From a virus, in the IMG/VR virus record IMGVR_UViG_3300044695_002738, positions 1-36,893 of that record: a stretch of 36,893 nucleotides of DNA; one strand, written 5' to 3'. Positions within the stretch are counted from its first letter, which is position 1; the number at the start of each line of letters is the position of its first letter. This document shows, piece by piece, positions 11,436 through 24,521 of this stretch. The translations under genes and the position numbers were made by a program. The notes beneath the pieces are model-generated. The model was given only the letters and a program-made list of their open reading frames with translations, had not been told where the DNA came from and ran no database searches.

Positions 11436-12185
11436 ATGGCCGTCATCAACCCCCTGTATGTTGTCCCCGAATACTGGGTAAACGGTTACGCCGAAGGCGA
11501 CGGCTTTTATCAACTTCAAGCCGAAATCCAAAAAGCCGCGCCCAGTGCTGTCATTGAGTTGTTTGAACTGGAGCTGAACGCACTCCAGCACGGCGTCGTA
11601 GATACTTACCGTTTTCACGCAGGCGTCAATCTCAACAGCAACGGCGAGGTTATCTGGATCGGCAACAGCTATCTACGCTTTCCGGTTGAGGCCGAGGGCT
11701 TTGAGTACAGCGGTAACGGCCAGCTGCCGCGGCCGAAAGTGCGGGTGAGCAACATCCTCGGCACCATCACCGCGCTGCTGCTCAGCCTGCCTGATGGGCT
11801 TGAGGGCGCCAAGCTGACGCGGATCCGCACGCTGGCCCGCTACATCGACGGCGCCAACTTCCCCGGCGGCACCAACCCCTACGGCACGCCAGATCCGACC
11901 GCGGAGTTTCCGCGTGAGATCTTCTACATCGACCGGAAGACGGCCGAGACGCGCGACGTGGTGGAGTTCGAGCTGGCGGCATCCTTTGACCTTGCCGGCG
12001 TGCGGGCACCCAAGCGGCAGTGCATCGCGAACATCTGCCAGTGGGTCTACAAGTCGGCGGAGTGCGGCTACACCGGCGGCTTGGCCACCTGCGAGAAGAC
12101 CCTTGACGACTGCAAGGCGCATTTCGGCGCGACCGCTGATCTGCCCTACGGCTCGTTCCCCGGTATCGGCACGTTCTTCGCATGA
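11436..12185 (+). CDS. L: Minor tail protein L-like
   Basis: The 249-residue product has the L layout: a beta-rich N-terminal domain and a C-terminal Cys cluster at 196, 201, 210, 219 and 226 ([19 protein letters not shown]). In lambda gpL, cysteines of this region bind an iron-sulfur cluster. The central [20 protein letters not shown] and [11 protein letters not shown] segments are typical. The first 75 residues are less GC-rich and may have been joined on. ATGA overlap couples it to the K-like gene. Confidence 0.9.
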
Positions 12186-12907
12186 CCATGACCTGGCGCA
12201 CCGCAGCACTTGATCACGCCAAAGCCGAGGATCCCCGCGAGGCCTGTGGCCTGCTGGTGGTGGTCAAAGGGCGCGAGCGCTACTGGCCATGCCAGAACCT
12301 CTCCGGCGGCACCGATCAGTTCATCCTGAGCCCGGACGACTACGCGGCCGCCGAGGATGCCGGCGAGATCATCGCGGTGATCCACAGCCACCCCGTCACC
12401 CCGCCGCAGCCCAGCGGGCCGGATCTGGTGGCGTGCGAGAAGAGCGGGCTGCCCTGGCACATCGTCAACCCGAAGACCGAAGCATGGGGCGGCTGCGAAC
12501 CATCGGGGTACAAGGCGCCGCTGATCGGCCGAGAATGGGCGTGGGGCGTCACCGACTGCTGGACGCTGGCGCGCGACTGGTGGCAGGCGCAGGGCCTGCA
12601 GCTGCCCGACTGGGAGCGCCCACTGACGCCGCAGGATTTCGAGGCGGCGCCGATGTTCGACGGCTGCTGGAAGGCTGCAGGCTTCCGCGAGCTGGACGAT
12701 GAGGATGAGCTGCAGGTGGGTGATGCGCTGCTGATGAGCATCAGCGGGCCGGGCTTGAATCACGTCGGCGTCTACATCGGCGACGGCCTGGTGCTCCATC
12801 ACATCCGCGGCAGGTTGAGCAGCCGCGACCTTTATGGCGGGTGGCTGCAGAAATGCACGGGCCGGCGGTTACGCCATCCTGAGTTCACTACGATGGGTGG
12901 AGGCTGA
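12182..12907 (+). CDS. K: Tail tip protein K-like: JAMM plus NlpC/P60 peptidase
   Basis: The 241-residue product carries two peptidase domains, as in lambda gpK. The JAMM (Mov34/MPN) part has Glu20 in EACGLL, His68 and His70 in HSHP, and Ser78 and Asp81 in SGPD, a complete metal-site motif. The NlpC/P60 part has Cys126 in TDCWTL, His194 in LNHVGVYIG and His206/207 further on. It is thought to act on cell-wall peptides or on tail proteins during tip assembly and DNA entry. Confidence 0.92.
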
Positions 12908-12915
12908 GCGGGGCC

Positions 12916-13488
12916 ATGCTGCGCGAGATCCGGGTCTATGGGCGGCTGGCAAAGTTCCTCGGCCGGCGCGTGTTCCGCGCGGAGGTGGCGACCGCTGCTG
13001 AGGCTGTGCGGTTCCTGCTGGCCAACTTCCCGCAGCTCGAGAAGCACATGGCCGACCAGCACTACCGGGTGAGCGTCGGCGGCTATGACCTGAGCCTCGA
13101 GGAGATCCACGACCCGGCCGGGCAGCAGGAGATCAAGATTGTCCCCGTGCTGGCTGGCGCTGGCGCGGTGGGGCGGATCATTGCCGGCGTGGCACTGCTG
13201 GTTGTTGGCTTCTTCGTTCCAGGCATCGGCGCCCTTGGCGCTCAGATCCTGATCGGTGTCGGCGCCAGCCTGGTGCTCGGCGGGGTGGCGCAGCTGCTCA
13301 CGCCGGTGCCGAACGTGCCGCAGGGCGCGGCATCCAACACCGACCAGGACCCGCGCAAGTCCTACAGCTTCTCCGGCATCCAACAGACCAGCCGCCAGGG
13401 CGTGCCCGTGCCGATCGTCTACGGCGAGACGCTGGTGGGCTCGGTCGTGATCTCGGCCGGCGTTGACACTGTGCAGGTGGCCGGATGA
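12916..13488 (+). CDS. I: Tail assembly protein I-like
   Basis: The 190-residue product has a ubiquitin-like N-terminal domain (VYGRLAKFLGRRVFRAEV, VRFLLANFPQLEKHM), a central hydrophobic Gly/Ala-rich segment at about 82-125 and a C-terminal part with NVPQGAASNTDQDPRKSYSF and GVPVPIVYGE, as in lambda gpI. ATGA overlap leads into J. Confidence 0.92.
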   Translation: MLREIRVYGRLAKFLGRRVFRAEVATAAEAVRFLLANFPQLEKHMADQHYRVSVGGYDLSLEEIHDPAGQQEIKIVPVLAGAGAVGRIIAGVALLVVGFFVPGIGALGAQILIGVGASLVLGGVAQLLTPVPNVPQGAASNTDQDPRKSYSFSGIQQTSRQGVPVPIVYGETLVGSVVISAGVDTVQVAG

Positions 13489-16400
13489 GCAGGATCGTCG
13501 GCGCAGGTGGCGGTGGGTGCTTCCTAGGGCACACGCTGGTTCGGGTGCCCGATGGGCAGCGGCGCATCGATGAGCTACACCCCGGCGATCTGGTGCTCAG
13601 CTTCGATGACCGGGGCACGGTCCACCAGGCCAAGGTGCTCAAGGTTCACGTCCACGAAGGCGAGCGGGTCAACCGCTACCGCCTGTGGGGCGGCGCCGCG
13701 CTGGATGCCACGCCGAATCACTGGGTGCTGAACCAGTTCAACGCGTTCGTGGAGATCGACACGCTGGGCGGTGACGACTGCTTGGTGGATGAGAACGGCC
13801 ACCTGCGGCCGATCGTGGACCGCGCTGAGTTCTGCGTCGGCACCGTCTACAACCTGACCGTTGAGGGCCACCACACCTTCATCGCCGGCGGGATTCGCGT
13901 TCACAATGCAGGCCTTGGCCTCGGCGTGATCGCTGGCGCAGGCGGCGGCGGCGGCAAGGGCGGCGGTGGCGGCGAGCAGCGCACGCCAACAGAAGCAGGC
14001 GACAACCTCAACAGCTCGCAGTATGCGCAGCTGCTGGACCTGCTCAGCGAAGGCGAGATCGAGGGCCTGAAGGCCGGCGCGCAGTCGATCTTTCTGAACA
14101 ACACGCCGCTGCAGAACGCCAACGGCACCTACAACTTCCAGAACGTCACCGTCTACACCCGCAACGGCACGCAGGATCAGGCTTACATCCCCGGATCGCC
14201 TGGCGTCGAGGATGCGAAGCCGGTGGGCGTGCAGGTGCAGCAGGCCACGCCGATCGTGCGCACGATCACCGACGCGAATGTGGACGCGGCACGGATCACC
14301 ATCACGGTGCCGCAGCTGCAGGAGTTCACCAACCAAGGCGACATCAACGGCACCGACGTGCGGTTGCAAATCGCCGTGCAGTACGGCGGCGGCGGCTACA
14401 CCACGGTGATCGATGACACGATCGCCGGCCGCACCGCTGACGCCTATCAACGCGACTACTTGGTGGCGCTGAGCAGCACCCCGGCCGACATCCGCGTGAC
14501 CCGGATCACGCCGGACAGCAGCAGCGCGAAGCTGGCCAACACTTTCACCTGGACCAGCTACACCGAGATCACCTACGCCAAGCTGCGCTACCCCAACAGC
14601 GCGCTGGTCGGCCTGCGGGTGGACGCTGAGCAGTTCTCAAGCATCCCAAGCCGCTCCTACCTGATCCGCGGCATCAAGGTGCGCATCCCGTCCAATGCGA
14701 CGGTGGACGCCACCAACGGCCGGCTGGTCTACAGCGGCATCTGGAATGGCAGCTTCGGCGCTGCACAGTGGTGCTCGGACCCGGCGTGGATCCTGTGGGA
14801 TCTGCTGACCTCCGCGCGCTACGGCTTCGGAGATCACATCCAGGCCGCGCAGCTCGACAAATGGGCGTTCTATGCCGCGAGCCAGTATGCCTCCGAGCTG
14901 GTGCCCAACGGCTTTGGCGGCACCGAGCCGCGTTTCTCCTGCAACGTCAACATCCAGACGGCTGAGGAGGCCTACAAGCTGATCAATGACATGTGCTCGG
15001 TGTTCCGGGCCATGCCGTACTGGAGCACCGGCGCGCTGACGATCAGCCAGGACCGGCCGGCCGATTCGGCCTACCTGTTCACGCTGGCCAACGTTTCCGA
15101 GGAAGGCTTCAGCTACCAGGGCAGCAGCCGCAAGACCCGCCCGACCGTGGCGGTGGTGAGCTACCTCGACCTGAGCCTGCGCGACATTGCCTACGAGGTG
15201 GTCGAGGATCAGACCGCGATTGCCAAGCACGGCGTGGTGTCCACGCAGATCAGCGCCTTCGCCTGCACCTCCCGCGGCCAAGCCAGCCGCATCGGTGAGT
15301 GGCTGCTCTATTCCGAGCAGTACGAAGGCGAGGTGGTCAGCTTCACCGCATCGATCGATGCCGGTGTGCTGGTGCGACCGGGGCAGATCATCGAGATCAG
15401 CGACCCGGTAAAGGCCGGCTCACGGCGCGGCGGCCGCATCACTGCAGCCACCACCACCTCGGTGACCGTCGATGATGCCAGCGGAATCGCAGCTGGTGCA
15501 GCCGCCACCCTCTCAGTGATCCTGCCCGATGGCACGGTGCAGAGCAGAGCGGTGACAACGATCGCCGGCAACGTGGTCAGCCTGGCCACCCCGCTGGCCG
15601 CAGCGCCCAACGCGAACAGCGTGTGGCTCTACCAGACATCCAACATCCAAACCTCGACCTGGCGCGTGCTCAGCGTGCAGGAGCAGGACGGGGCGAAGTA
15701 CGCGATCAGCGCGCTGGCCTACAACGCCAGCAAGTACGACTACATCGAGCGCGGCGCTGCGCTGCAGCCGCGAGACATCACCGACCTCAACATCATCCCG
15801 GAGGCGCCCACCAACCTGCAGGCCGCCGAGACGCTCTATGAGCTGAACGGACGCGCGCTGGCCAAGCTGATCATCAGCTGGCAGCCTGTGGTCGGCGTGA
15901 ACGAGTATCGCGTGCGCTGGCGGCCGCAAAACGGCAACTGGACCAGCACCACACAGGCGCGGCCTGATTTCGAGATCCTCGACACCACGGCCGGCGTCTA
16001 TGAGGTGCAGGTCTACAGCATCAACGCAGCGCTGCGGCAGTCGGTGGAGCCGGCAAAGCTGACCGTGCAGGCCTTCGGCAAGACCGCACCACCCGAGAGC
16101 GTCACCGGCCTGTCGCTGATCCCGATCGACAACGCCAGCGCCATCCTCAGCTGGGATCGCTCCCCCGAGCTGGACGTGGTGCTCGGCGGCAAGGTGCTGA
16201 TCCGCCACAGCGTGTTGCTCACCGGCGCGATCTGGGAGGAGAGCCAAGAGATCGTGGCCGCGGCAGCCGGCAGCCAGACACAGAAGCAGGTGCCGGTGCT
16301 CGAGGGCACCTATCTGGTGAAGTTCGAGGATGACGGCGGCCGCCGGTCGCTGGTGGCCAGCACCGTGATCGTGGACCTGCCCACACCGCAGCCGCGGCAG

Positions 16401-17198
16401 CTGGTGCAGACCTATGCCGAGGAGCTGGAGAGCCCGCCCTTCAACGGCAACTACACCGACATGTTCTATGTGGCCAACCTGGCCGAAGCAGGCGGCGTCA
16501 GCGGTTTGATCCTGAGCACCGGCCTCACGGTGGACGCGATGGCCACTGACGGAGACTGGGACGCGCTGGCATCGATCGACAGCGTGGGCGGCGTGCTGCC
16601 GGCGGGCGAATACGAGTTCGGCTCGACCTACGCCTTTCCCGGCGTGTTCGACTGCAACCTGCGCCGCCGGCTGGTCACGCTGCCCTACATCCCCGGCGAC
16701 TTCTGGGATGACCACCTCGATGACATCGACACCTGGGACTTCATCGACGGCACCGACGCCGATCGCGTGAACGCGCTCACCTACGTGCGCACCACGCAGG
16801 ACGACCCCAGCGGCACACCAACCTGGAGCACCTGGCGCGAGTTCGCCAACGCGATTGTGCGGGGCCGTGGCTTCCAGTTCAAGACGGTGGCCACCAGCAC
16901 CGACCCGACGCAAAACATCATCACCGTGGAGCTAGGCGCCGAGCTGGAGCTGCAGCAACGCACCGAGCAGTCTGCGGTGCTGACAAGTGGCGCTGGCACG
17001 TATACGGTCATCTTCACGAATGCCTTCTTTGATCCGCCCAGTGTCGGCGTGACGGGGTTCAACATGGCCACCGGCGACTACTTCGCGATAGCTTCCGTGA
17101 CGCGGACCGGATTCCAAGTAACATTCAGGAACAGCGCCGGCAGTGCCGTGAGCCGCCAGTTCACCTACACAGCCATCGGGTTCGGGAGGCAGATCTAA
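13485..17198 (+). CDS. J: Tip attachment protein J with N-terminal Hint (intein-like) domain
   Basis: The 1237-residue product is the central tail-tip and host-range protein. From residue about 165 it follows lambda J closely: RTPTEAGDNLNSSQYAQLLD, SEGEIEGLKAG, YPNSALVGLRVDAEQF, YSGIWNG, WILWDLLTSARYGFG, SRGQASRIGEWLLYSE, then fibronectin-like repeats and a C-terminal beta domain ending AIGFGRQI. Before this, residues 12-141 form a complete Hint domain, described separately. Flanks are Gly-rich (GAGGGG before, AGAGGGGG after). If the Hint domain cleaves rather than splices, mature J would start at Ala142. ATGA overlap couples it to I. Confidence 0.95.
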   Translation: MSRIVGAGGGGCFLGHTLVRVPDGQRRIDELHPGDLVLSFDDRGTVHQAKVLKVHVHEGERVNRYRLWGGAALDATPNHWVLNQFNAFVEIDTLGGDDCLVDENGHLRPIVDRAEFCVGTVYNLTVEGHHTFIAGGIRVHNAGLGLGVIAGAGGGGGKGGGGGEQRTPTEAGDNLNSSQYAQLLDLLSEGEIEGLKAGAQSIFLNNTPLQNANGTYNFQNVTVYTRNGTQDQAYIPGSPGVEDAKPVGVQVQQATPIVRTITDANVDAARITITVPQLQEFTNQGDINGTDVRLQIAVQYGGGGYTTVIDDTIAGRTADAYQRDYLVALSSTPADIRVTRITPDSSSAKLANTFTWTSYTEITYAKLRYPNSALVGLRVDAEQFSSIPSRSYLIRGIKVRIPSNATVDATNGRLVYSGIWNGSFGAAQWCSDPAWILWDLLTSARYGFGDHIQAAQLDKWAFYAASQYASELVPNGFGGTEPRFSCNVNIQTAEEAYKLINDMCSVFRAMPYWSTGALTISQDRPADSAYLFTLANVSEEGFSYQGSSRKTRPTVAVVSYLDLSLRDIAYEVVEDQTAIAKHGVVSTQISAFACTSRGQASRIGEWLLYSEQYEGEVVSFTASIDAGVLVRPGQIIEISDPVKAGSRRGGRITAATTTSVTVDDASGIAAGAAATLSVILPDGTVQSRAVTTIAGNVVSLATPLAAAPNANSVWLYQTSNIQTSTWRVLSVQEQDGAKYAISALAYNASKYDYIERGAALQPRDITDLNIIPEAPTNLQAAETLYELNGRALAKLIISWQPVVGVNEYRVRWRPQNGNWTSTTQARPDFEILDTTAGVYEVQVYSINAALRQSVEPAKLTVQAFGKTAPPESVTGLSLIPIDNASAILSWDRSPELDVVLGGKVLIRHSVLLTGAIWEESQEIVAAAAGSQTQKQVPVLEGTYLVKFEDDGGRRSLVASTVIVDLPTPQPRQLVQTYAEELESPPFNGNYTDMFYVANLAEAGGVSGLILSTGLTVDAMATDGDWDALASIDSVGGVLPAGEYEFGSTYAFPGVFDCNLRRRLVTLPYIPGDFWDDHLDDIDTWDFIDGTDADRVNALTYVRTTQDDPSGTPTWSTWREFANAIVRGRGFQFKTVATSTDPTQNIITVELGAELELQQRTEQSAVLTSGAGTYTVIFTNAFFDPPSVGVTGFNMATGDYFAIASVTRTGFQVTFRNSAGSAVSRQFTYTAIGFGRQI
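13518..13907 (+). other. Hint / bacterial intein-like (A-type BIL-like) domain inside J
   Basis: Residues 12-141 of J (130 aa) have all intein splicing blocks and no endonuclease. Block A is CFLGHTLVRVPDG with Cys12 as first residue. Block B is DATPNHWVL with the TxxH motif. Block F is VYNLTVEGHHTFIAGG. Block G ends VHN at 140-141. The next residue is Ala142, not the Cys, Ser or Thr needed for normal splicing. This is typical of bacterial intein-like domains, which cleave themselves more often than they splice. Cleavage at both ends would remove the first 141 residues. Confidence 0.9.
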
Positions 17199-20382: not shown

Positions 20383-21465
20383 ATGGCCAACGCCGCCCCG
20401 ATCACACTGGAGCAGCTGTTCCGCTACTTCAAGGGCGCGCCGCATCAGGCCGCGGCCATCAGCCAGCTGGAGCAAGACCTGGCGGTGAACGGCTACGCCG
20501 CGGCCATGCGCCGTGACCGGGCGTGGTTCAACACCTGGAGCCAGGACGGCAAGCAAGCGGACCTCAGCGCGGCGCTGAGCATGATCCAGCAGTTCGAGGG
20601 TTGCCACCTCGACGCCTACCCTGACCCGGCCAGCGGTGGTGATCCGTGGACGATCGGCTACGGGACCACCCGCTACGGCGACGGCCGGCCGGTCAAGCGC
20701 GGCGACAGGATCAACGCCGTCGAGGCAGACATGCTGCTGCGGCAGGAGGTGGATCGGATCGCTGACAAGCTGCGCGCCACGGTGCCGCACTGGGGCGAGA
20801 TGGCAGACCACCAGAAGTGCGCGCTGATCAGCTTCGCCTACAACCTCGGCAGCGGGTTCTACGGCGCCAAGGGCTTCGAGACCATCAGCAAGCGACTGCG
20901 CGAGAAGGACTGGCCCGGCGTGCCTGATGCCCTGCTGCTCTACCGCAACCCTGGCACCAACGTCGAGGCCGGCCTAAAGCGGCGCCGCATCGCTGAGGGC
21001 GATCTGTGGGGCCGAGAGCGGCAGACCACTGGGCCGATCGAGGCGACGTTCACGCCCGAGTCGCCGTTCAGCTTCAAGATCACGCCGCACATCACCTACG
21101 GCGAGTTCGCGCTGAACCAGGAGGGGCGGCGCTTCGATCACCAGCATCAGTGCGACACCGCGGTGAAGCTGGCGCAGTTCCTCGAGAAGGCGCGCGCACG
21201 GTTCGACGGCAAGGCGGTGATCATCACCTCCGGCTACCGGCCCGCTGCCATCAACCGGGCCGTGGGTGGCGCCAGCCAGTCGGAGCACCTCTACGACGCG
21301 CCAGGCGTCGGTGCGGTGGACTTCTTCATCGACGGCGTGGACATCAACGCGGTGCAGGACTGGTGCGACAGGCAGTGGCCCTACTCGCTGGGCTACGGCG
21401 CACCCAAGGGCTTTGTGCACCTTGGCATCCGTCAGGGCAGCCCTAGGGTGCGTTGGATTTACTGA
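20383..21465 (+). CDS. Two-domain endolysin: GH24 lysozyme plus M15 peptidase
   Basis: The 360-residue product has a T4-type lysozyme at about 60-210, with Glu72 in FEGCHLDAYPDP, Asp81 nine residues later and Thr95 in IGYGTT, matching the Glu/Asp/Thr triad. Residues 228-360 form an M15-type D-Ala-D-Ala peptidase with SGYRP, zinc ligands His302 (SEH), Asp313 (VDFF) and His346 (HLGI). Cutting both glycan and peptide bonds suits the thick cyanobacterial peptidoglycan. Two catalytic domains in one phage lysin are less common in Gram-negative hosts. Residues 1-55 are a helical addition of unknown role. Confidence 0.92.
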   Translation: MANAAPITLEQLFRYFKGAPHQAAAISQLEQDLAVNGYAAAMRRDRAWFNTWSQDGKQADLSAALSMIQQFEGCHLDAYPDPASGGDPWTIGYGTTRYGDGRPVKRGDRINAVEADMLLRQEVDRIADKLRATVPHWGEMADHQKCALISFAYNLGSGFYGAKGFETISKRLREKDWPGVPDALLLYRNPGTNVEAGLKRRRIAEGDLWGRERQTTGPIEATFTPESPFSFKITPHITYGEFALNQEGRRFDHQHQCDTAVKLAQFLEKARARFDGKAVIITSGYRPAAINRAVGGASQSEHLYDAPGVGAVDFFIDGVDINAVQDWCDRQWPYSLGYGAPKGFVHLGIRQGSPRVRWIY

Positions 21466-21472
21466 CGACCGC

Positions 21473-21988
21473 GTGCCTCTCCCCGACTACGAGATCCACC
21501 ACCTGTGCAAGAAGCACGCGATGGTGCTGCCGTTCGATCCTGGGCTGGTAAACCCGGCCAGCATCGACGTGCTGTTGGGCGATCGGATCATGATCGAGGT
21601 GGCCGAGAGCCCCGAGCTGCAGATTCATGGCATCAGCGGCCACACGGCCGAGGATCCCTACTGGCTGCAGCCGGGTGAGTTCTGCCTGGCGGAGACGCGC
21701 GAGATCTTCAACCTGCCCGACTCAATCGCCGCGCAGTTCGTGCTCAAGTCCAGCCGCGCCCGTGAAGGGCTGGAGCACCTGCTGGCCGGCTACTGCGATC
21801 CAGGGTGGCATGGCAGCCGGCTGACGCTGGAGCTGCAGAACGCGCGGCGGATGCACCCGATCGCGCTGTGGCCCGGCATGAAGATCGGGCAGATGGTCTT
21901 CCACAAGATGGAGGGCATCCCGGCGCGCAGCTATGCGATCACCGGCCGTTACAACCAGGACGCAGCCGTGACGGCCAGCAAGGGCTAG
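21473..21988 (+). CDS. dcd: dCTP deaminase-like nucleotide enzyme
   Basis: GTG 21473 gives 171 residues, 7 bases after the endolysin stop. Motifs of the dCTP deaminase/dUTPase superfamily are visible: ASIDVLLGDRI, YWLQPGEFCLAETREIFNLP, VLKSSRAREGL, GYCDPGWHG, and LTLELQNARR, whose Glu aligns with the catalytic Glu of E. coli Dcd. ALWPGMKIGQMVF follows. The product should make dUTP (or dUMP) for dTTP supply. The stop lies in the CTAG that also holds the integrase stop on the other strand. Confidence 0.85.
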   Translation: MPLPDYEIHHLCKKHAMVLPFDPGLVNPASIDVLLGDRIMIEVAESPELQIHGISGHTAEDPYWLQPGEFCLAETREIFNLPDSIAAQFVLKSSRAREGLEHLLAGYCDPGWHGSRLTLELQNARRMHPIALWPGMKIGQMVFHKMEGIPARSYAITGRYNQDAAVTASKG

Positions 21989-23097
21989 CCCACCAGCGCC
22001 GCCACCTTGGCCGCGGCGGCCGCTGCAGCCTCATCGATGAGGTGCGCATACCGCTGGGTGGTCTGCGGGCTGGCATGGCCCAGCAGGCCGCCAATCTGCG
22101 GCAGGCTCAGCCCGGCGCTCACACCGAGGCTGGCGAAGTTGTGGCGCAGGTCATGCACCCGCAGGTTGCGGATCTCGGCCGCGGCCAGCAGGTCGTCCCA
22201 CATCCGCCAGTAGCCGACCAGGTGGCTGTCATCATCGCCGGCGATCACCCAGGCGCTGTTGGACCGCTGCCGTAGCTCTCGTAGGATCTGAATGGCCGCG
22301 GGTGGTAGATGCACTTTGCGATCGTTGCCATCCTGTCCGGTCTTGTGGGCCTCGGCCGGCACCAGCAGCACCGCTGCATCGAGATCGAGCCAGTCCCATC
22401 GCGCGCACATCACCTCCCGCACGCGGCAGCCGGTGACCAGCAGCAGCCGAATCAGTTGCGCAAACCGCCACCGCACACCGGCCTCGGCGAACGTGTCCAA
22501 TGCGGCCAGCAGCCGCTTGAGCTCCTCCCTGGTCAGGTAGCGCCGGCGCTTGCGTTCGCTGTTGGCATTGAGCCGCACGCAAGGGTTGGAACCGGCGGGC
22601 CGCAGCTCCCACAGCTCGGCCAGATTCATCGCCTTGCTGAGCACCTCCAGGCAGCGATTGGCACGCACCGGCCGCTCAAGGCTGGCGCGGTGAAACCAGT
22701 CCGCCACGTGCCGCTGCTGGAGCTCTGAAACCTTCAAGGCGCCAAACTCGGGCAGCAGGTGGCGGCGCCAGATCAGCTCATTGTTCACCACGCTGCCGGG
22801 CCGCAGCTTGCGCCAGTGCTCGCGCTTGATGCGCTCAAGCAGCTGAGCAACGGTCGGCGCCCTGCGGCGCTCCTGGCGCGCACTGGTGGGTGCCTGGCCG
22901 GTGGCCACAGCCGCCAGGATCTTGTGGGCCTGCTCGCGCGCGGTGGTGACGTTGACCGAGTCGGCCCGGCCGATGCGGTGGTGCTGCTGCTTGCCGCTCG
23001 GCTCCCGGTAGCGCAGGTACCAGGTGCGCACGCCTGACGGCAGCACCATCACACCCAGGCCCGGCACCTTCCGATCGGCGATCCACTGCTTGCTCAT
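21985..23097 (-). CDS. int: Tyrosine recombinase integrase
   Basis: The 370-residue product is a P4/lambda-type integrase. A short N-terminal DNA-binding domain (PGLGVMVLPSGVRTWYLRYR) is followed by a SAM-like core-binding domain at about 80-180 and the catalytic domain with Arg225 (TGCRVREV), Lys252 (HKTG), His315 and Arg318 (HDLRH), His341 (LLGHAS) and nucleophile Tyr350 (TQRYAH). All catalytic residues are present. The C-terminus is Ala-rich. The gene points away from attP, whose core lies about 140 bases upstream of the start. One arm-type repeat overlaps the start codon, so bound integrase could repress its own gene. Confidence 0.95.
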   Translation of the reverse strand: MSKQWIADRKVPGLGVMVLPSGVRTWYLRYREPSGKQQHHRIGRADSVNVTTAREQAHKILAAVATGQAPTSARQERRRAPTVAQLLERIKREHWRKLRPGSVVNNELIWRRHLLPEFGALKVSELQQRHVADWFHRASLERPVRANRCLEVLSKAMNLAELWELRPAGSNPCVRLNANSERKRRRYLTREELKRLLAALDTFAEAGVRWRFAQLIRLLLVTGCRVREVMCARWDWLDLDAAVLLVPAEAHKTGQDGNDRKVHLPPAAIQILRELRQRSNSAWVIAGDDDSHLVGYWRMWDDLLAAAEIRNLRVHDLRHNFASLGVSAGLSLPQIGGLLGHASPQTTQRYAHLIDEAAAAAAAKVAALVG

Positions 23098-24235: not shown

Positions 24236-24521
24236 CGAGACCCGCCTGGTCACACGCCGCTCCGCGCGCGATCAGATCCACCTCGCCTGGAACTACGAGT
24301 GTGCATACTGCGGCGATCCGCTCGGCCGCAGTCCGACCCTCGATCACGTCATCCCCAAGGTGCACGGCGGCCTGACCGTGCGCGAGAACCTCGTCAGCTG
24401 TTGCCTCATGTGCAACAGCCAGAAGGGCCACAAGCCGTGGACCGACTGGTATCGCGCTCAGCCGTTCTGGACCGCAATGGGCGAGTGGGCAATCGCGCGC
24501 TGGGTCGCCGGTGAGGGCTAA
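24216..24521 (+). CDS. HNH endonuclease
   Basis: From GTG 24216 the 101-residue product has the full HNH pattern: CAYCGDPLG, LDHVIPKVHGG with the catalytic His, NLVSCCLMCNSQKG with the second Cys pair. This small stand-alone form works as a nicking or cutting enzyme; near terminase genes such proteins support packaging, but here it lies in the early region. It and the upstream gene form a rightward pair between two leftward units, like an inserted cassette. Confidence 0.88.
   Translation: MDQHHIDETRLVTRRSARDQIHLAWNYECAYCGDPLGRSPTLDHVIPKVHGGLTVRENLVSCCLMCNSQKGHKPWTDWYRAQPFWTAMGEWAIARWVAGEG

Follow-up and report, generated by a model that had tools for sequence, protein, structure and literature searches.

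A predicted self-processing Hint domain of the A-type BIL kind near the N-terminus of a lambda-type tail tip protein J

The DNA analysed here (the window) is a stretch of 36,893 nucleotides comprising positions 1 to 36,893 of IMG/VR virus record IMGVR_UViG_3300044695_002738, and its source is a tailed, temperate phage. Gene J (13485..17198, plus strand) is an open reading frame for a lambda-type tail tip or central fibre protein of 1237 amino acids. In the family search its relation to the lambda tip protein J appeared as matches to PF24801 (FNIII-A_GpJ) and PF13550, together with a match to NF049904 (lambda_TipJ) covering residues 159-865 and one to phrog_31 with an E-value of 9e-259. The homologues of L, K and I lie directly upstream in that order and on the same strand: the minor tail protein L (11436..12185; PF05100, E 2.5e-48), the K homologue with its JAB and NlpC/P60 domains (12182..12907; PF14464 and PF00877) and the tip plug protein I (12916..13488; phrog_32, E 4e-50), whose stop codon overlaps the start of J in the sequence ATGA. 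A temperate phage is indicated by a tyrosine integrase with an arm-binding domain encoded on the minus strand at 21988-23097, which found a single match, 33% identical, among 200 genomes of the candidate host order. Elsewhere on the plus strand, an endolysin-like protein joins a phage lysozyme domain to a peptidase M15 domain (20383-21465), a single open reading frame fuses a prohead protease with an HK97-type major capsid protein (23-1939), and an HNH domain (PF01844), possibly of the packaging type, is encoded at 24300-24434 and is present in 16 of 17 related contigs.

Close behind its start, J carries a Hint domain of 130 residues that resembles the A-type bacterial intein-like (BIL) domains and runs from Cys12 to His140-Asn141 (13518..13907, plus strand). 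An earlier note on this DNA, written from the letters alone, had described residues 12-141 as a complete Hint domain, and this was borne out: Cys12, T76-P77-N78-H79, H140-N141 and the following Ala142 are all in place. The domain matched PF01079 (Hint) at 8e-8, Intein_splicing at 2e-6 and PT-HINT at 9e-6, as well as TIGR01443 and TIGR01445, and a sequence search of the PDB returned mini-inteins and BILs. Among 55 diverse homologues, Hint and Intein_splicing were matched by all and PT-HINT (PF07591) by 54, the best E-values being 8.8e-14 for PT-HINT versus 2e-9 for Intein_splicing. AlphaFold2 modelled residues 11-140 with a pLDDT of 92-98 (about 95) and left the flanks disordered. In the profile comparison the nearest solved structure was the BIL domain 2LWY of Clostridium thermocellum (E 1.7e-9 over the full length of the domain), ahead by a small margin of the Mtu RecA mini-inteins (1.5e-8). 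The best Foldseek matches were BIL and intein structures, headed by 6Y75 and 6TMM of Tetrahymena BIL2, and 2LWY was superposed with an rmsd of 1.7 Å and a TMt of 0.87; the closest viral predicted structure was A0A218MKA3, an uncultured-virus protein (37% identical). Since families, the PDB sequence search, AlphaFold2 and Foldseek agree, and since 124 distinct homologues and six distant ones share 49 invariant positions, a chance origin of the signal is excluded.

Conservation was followed in 124 Hint-bearing J genes remaining after removal of duplicates and in six more distant copies, 130 in all. The domain is 130 residues long in each of the 124. Cys12 (Cys1 of the Hint domain, 13518..13520), the predicted nucleophile of an N-to-S acyl shift, is invariant in both sets; the glycine at position -1 (Gly11 in the window) is invariant too. 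Block B (T76-P77-N78-H79, 13710..13721) reads TPNH in 115 of the 124 and TANH in the other nine. His140-Asn141 (13902..13907), where Asn cyclisation and cleavage on the C side are predicted, do not vary, and the flank that follows opens with the conserved AGLG (13908..13919), whose first residue, the non-nucleophilic Ala142, is the +1 residue and is alanine in 124/124. In Hint numbering, Cys1, Thr65, Asn67, His68, the block F His119, His129 and Asn130 are invariant in 130/130, +1 is always Ala, and 49 of the 130 positions show no change at all. The six distant copies (L397-L401 and L403) have AGIG in place of AGLG after the HN pair; their Hint domains start with CFTGDT, are 65-67% identical to that of the window and belong to J genes of an MTQxKY clade, in which empty alleles are known as well.

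The codons behind this constancy are informative. The +1 alanine is written GCC in 63 genes, GCT in 41, GCG in 11 and GCA in 9, so that all four codons are used and synonymous change has been plentiful, while Ser, Thr and Cys never arose at +1; a single base change would give Ser or Thr, yet neither is seen in the 124. Four-fold sites have diverged to a similar extent in the Hint domain and in the J core (about 0.55 versus 0.6 in deep pairs, with r 0.76 over all pairs) and are close to saturated, whereas amino-acid divergence is near 0.21 in the domain versus 0.4-0.6 in the core. Because four-fold divergence tracks the core while protein divergence stays low, the domain is an old resident of J under strong purifying selection, tighter than that on its host. 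A decayed intein was ruled out by the invariance of the catalytic residues and Ala+1 at near-saturated synonymous divergence. That the non-nucleophilic alanine is kept argues for BIL-type processing as a selected end state and not for a broken intein. The invariance of Cys1 and block B suggests that chemistry on the N side matters too, although it is only moderately informative, since many of the 49 invariant positions lie outside the active site. Three residues outside the usual catalytic set, His46, Cys88 and His95 (J residues 57, 99 and 106, encoded at 13653-13655, 13779-13781 and 13800-13802 on the plus strand), are also invariant in all 130 copies and could form a metal or redox site. As proposed in the earlier note, J is predicted to process itself, and this conservation supports the idea strongly.

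Homologues of J with and without the domain, for which that note had suggested looking, were both found, and 124 Hint-bearing and 133 empty genes were examined. Close relatives with an empty site have J cores 92-98% identical. In one such pair, with cores 92% identical, the empty allele starts with MSRIVGAGGGGGGGKGGGG and the window reads MSRIVGAGGGG-Hint-AGLGLGVIAGAGGGGGKGGGG; the insert is about 426 bp and consists of the Hint domain followed by AGLGxG-I-x-GAGG. The Gly-rich repeat reported on both sides of the domain is real. The N-flank MSRIVGAGGGG (13485..13517) is a first copy of the ordinary N-terminal motif of J, [ILV]xG[AS]G, which occurs once, at the start, in 129 of the 133 empty genes and is found in 119 of the 124 N-flanks. 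The C-flank LGVIAGAGGGGGKGGGGGEQ (13920..13979, plus strand like the N-flank) holds a second copy, present in 122/124, followed by a Gly-rich linker, and the motif part moves as a piece of the Hint cassette. With 58% of their four-fold sites different, the two copies within one gene are no recent duplicates of each other, yet both have been kept; four-fold sites of the N-flank diverge at 0.52. In a few events the flanks vary together: LQG stands in both in one clade, and in L079 both read IQGASTGGG and differ only synonymously.

The origin suggested earlier for this repeat, a duplication made at insertion, did not hold up in L216, the one recent gain that could be dated. The core of L216 is 98% identical to that of the empty L228, while L062 has a Hint domain 96% identical to that of L216 but a core only 41% identical; L216 is thus a clear horizontal gain of the cassette. 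Its insert measures 426 bp. Of its two flanks, the N-flank MTSPDFPIEITGAGGGG stems from the recipient and the C-flank AGLGIGIAGAGG is similar to that of the donor, which makes the second motif copy a part of the cassette. On a tree of 247 J cores, parsimony placed 20 changes between presence and absence, at least 10 of them forced by well-supported branches. The unit of inheritance appears to be a cassette of about 426 bp that brings the Hint domain and its own replacement J N-terminus to one site. Since GAGGGG is encoded on either side, deletion between these repeats would return the gene to its empty state without a scar, and the cassette would be regained by recombination. Two side observations concern the empty genes: one locus (L104) has an unusual start, MSIHGGRIAGGPLVTGAGGGG, that might be a remnant or another insertion, and in the empty genes of the L216 group (L232-L288) the Gly-rich linker is replaced by one rich in Pro, Gln and Val (e.g. 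PQQTVVQNVTV) while ISGAGG is kept.

Horizontal spread as the general cause of the high Hint identity was ruled out by the correlation between Hint and core four-fold divergence; local exchange of the domain does exist (L216, L025, L017, L148 and L042). Homing by a linked endonuclease was likewise rejected: no LAGLIDADG endonuclease was found in 17 contigs, and among the 16 that carry the HNH domain are three of the four without Hint. These data bear on a reading in which the insertion is a selfish element only, mobile and mini-intein-like, which stays active because an unprocessed J would be lethal and which brings the phage nothing. Presence and absence at a single site, clean empty alleles and the gain in L216 all fit it, while the same lack of LAGLIDADG and the indifference of the HNH gene to Hint weigh against it, as does the slower evolution of the domain compared with its host core, with invariant stretches outside the active site that suggest more than self-removal. 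We regard it as a tenable minority view. The reading that we prefer, and consider likely, is that the insert in J is a mobile cassette of the A-type BIL kind and cuts itself out by cleavage on the C side, between Asn141 and Ala142, with or without ligation.

In order to judge how widespread the arrangement is, several collections were searched. A J gene with a Hint domain was not found among 50,697 GenBank phage records (to August 2025), in which the weak matches were mostly inteins of TerL, helicase and RNA ligase. At least 452 stretches of IMG/VR encode the domain; these collections hold fragments, and the counts are of distinct loci and not of phage species. In the cellular genome collection the only match was one contig of a cyanobacterial MAG, and a second cellular copy was not found in 299 genomes of the order of that MAG. 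The retrieval started from the Hint domain and J of the window, so that remoter forms, including those with another +1 residue, may be missed, and the E-values of the related-locus search apply to the candidates only. A pattern scan for a canonical J version with Ser, Thr or Cys at +1, limited by its requirement for a CAC codon, Gly at +2 and KGGGG, gave 12 stretches, none of them a Hint domain. No second Hint domain was found elsewhere in the same contigs; a further match in one of them (G016), situated where the contig ends, resembles a wrap-around fragment. In the open-access literature we found no earlier report of a Hint domain in J.

By its fold and its blocks A, B, F and G the domain belongs to the Hint superfamily. 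Its His-Asn end followed by a +1 residue other than Cys, Ser or Thr, in 124/124 and in the six distant copies, is that of A-type BILs, and in sequence it lies nearer to BIL and PT-HINT domains than to inteins, with the small margin between 2LWY and Mtu RecA noted above. The C. thermocellum domain shares Cys1, the block B TxxH and the C-terminal HN, but is only about 24% identical, and in J the +1 residue is always Ala followed by the rest of AG[LI]G; 2LWY represents a type without a +1 nucleophile which, according to the account of Dassa 2004 and Aranko 2013 in PMC4031507, can splice and mostly cleaves. Type A BILs have been described at varying positions in variable, often secreted bacterial proteins, whereas the J domain occupies one fixed site of a conserved virion protein in every locus examined, which makes it less of a typical BIL without implying that it works otherwise. 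Tetrahymena BIL2, from the BUBL1 polyubiquitin locus, is alike in fold and in autoprocessing without the canonical route; it differs in being eukaryotic, 24-25% identical and in passing a ubiquitin-like flank to lysine, while the flank in J has 11 residues. Polymorphic-toxin PT-HINT domains, matched as PF07591 in 54/55 of the J homologues, have a proposed role in autoproteolytic release (PMC3482391); the J domain differs by its tail tip host, its N-terminal place and the absence of a toxin domain after it.

Class 1 mini-inteins (gp41-1, the Mtu RecA splicing domain, DnaB) share the fold, blocks A, B, F and G and a presence/absence polymorphism at a fixed site, but they have Cys, Ser or Thr at +1, where J has Ala in 130/130, and the J insert differs further by its host-like C-flank and the lack of an exact extein junction and of an endonuclease domain. 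The inteins of aquatic phages, such as those in TerL of Mic1 and phiCbK and in the dCTP deaminase of CL131, show that cyanophages and caulophages carry Hint elements too; unlike the J domain they sit in enzymes, some with homing endonuclease domains. Class 3 inteins lack Cys1 and have a Cys at position 4 of block F and a WCT motif; this class was ruled out, as Cys1 is present and block F (TVYNLTV), judged by eye, has Asn at F:4. Hedgehog domains, in which a sterol attacks the N-side thioester with the help of a sterol-recognition region and no Asn step occurs, were dismissed on account of the HN end and the J core that follows directly. A B-type BIL was rejected because the HN end is invariant and the B type has no intein-like block G, and a homing intein because all copies have 130 residues, with the endonuclease results given above. 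Judged from sequence and fold, the domain appears to be a phage-borne form of the A-type BIL kind, with activity predicted.

As type B BILs and Hint relics show, possession of a Hint fold does not by itself determine which products form. In type A BILs, Cys1 forms a thioester, Asn cyclises at the C end and the free amine then attacks the thioester, with cleavage dominating (PMC4031507); where a +1 nucleophile is lacking, splicing can proceed through aminolysis of the thioester at the N-terminus, for which that article cites Dassa 2004 and Aranko 2013. The earlier expectation that normal splicing would not occur therefore stands for the canonical route only: type A BILs can splice, and Ala+1 does not exclude ligation. 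That J processes itself in some way is very probable. In the proposed scheme, the J precursor would carry the autoprocessing domain in its disordered N-terminal linker; after folding, Cys12 would form a thioester with Gly11 and Asn141 would cyclise, cutting the Asn141-Ala142 bond and freeing a J that starts with Ala-Gly-Leu-Gly...I-x-Gly-Ala-Gly-Gly and so regains the motif that opens empty J genes. The thioester may then be attacked by the released amine of Ala142, which would ligate the N-flank of 11 residues to J and place MSRIVGAGGGG before AGLG...IxGAGG, or it would be hydrolysed. Cleavage on the C side would be expected in most molecules and ligation in a fraction. Since a 130-residue domain left on the N-terminal side of J would probably get in the way of tip assembly, its removal before or during assembly seems likely, and the J of the source phage probably trims or splices itself before it is used.

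Given self-processing, we lean towards mainly cleavage and hold mainly ligation to be the less favoured outcome, though a substantial one. If ligation were the main outcome, a mini-intein-like reaction by aminolysis through the Ala amine would leave a mature J with its own N-terminus and a short AGLGLGxI scar. Cys1, Gly-1 and TxNH are invariant, and the J signature of the N-flank is kept in 119/124, with Gly invariant, despite a four-fold divergence of 0.52. This retention would be needless if the peptide were simply discarded, and it counts against a dominance of cleavage. For the BIL to which 2LWY, the closest solved relative, belongs, ligation in the absence of a nucleophilic side chain has moreover been reported (Aranko 2013, as presented in PMC4031507). 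On the other hand, type A BILs yield mainly cleavage products (PMC4031507), Ala+1 never became Ser or Thr though one base change suffices, and the second J motif of the cassette is unneeded for splicing; on balance we are doubtful of ligation as the principal route.

A further step from the preferred self-excising cassette would be its domestication as a transferable maturation cassette, with J competent only after folding or after binding, for example to I or L or to a metal at His46/Cys88/His95, which would amount to an assembly checkpoint; this we consider unlikely. Less probable still is a domain that has lost its catalytic role and remains part of the virion for structure or adhesion. Siphophages are known to vary particularly in N-terminal extensions of gpJ (PMC13243795), but neither the catalytic residues nor Ala+1 vary in the 130 copies, in which synonymous divergence is near saturation. 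Transfer in trans, in which a lysine of a neighbouring tip protein would take over the MSRIVGAGGGG thioester, is the least probable, even though BIL2, the top fold match, can pass its N-flank to lysine as an isopeptide bond with activation by zinc bound by two His (PMC8616854), the conserved Gly-rich N-flank ends beside Cys1 and the extra invariant His46, Cys88 and His95 call for an explanation, because no partner is known here for a Gly-rich tag of 11 residues.

The predicted self-excising cassette in J has several implications. Most known phage inteins reside in enzymes, whereas the host of this intein-like domain is a structural protein that has to form a precise three-fold tip, and the domain lies where J meets the plug protein I. 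Hint-bearing J genes are frequent in environmental phage contigs, in which they number hundreds, yet they are absent from the GenBank phage collection searched. Natural pairs of near-identical J genes, of which one has the cassette and the other lacks it, allow a direct test of whether it costs or benefits the phage, and a Hint domain of 130 residues could serve as a tool for ligation or cleavage. If J is indeed freed with a new N-terminus, this would bear on how lambda-type tips assemble.
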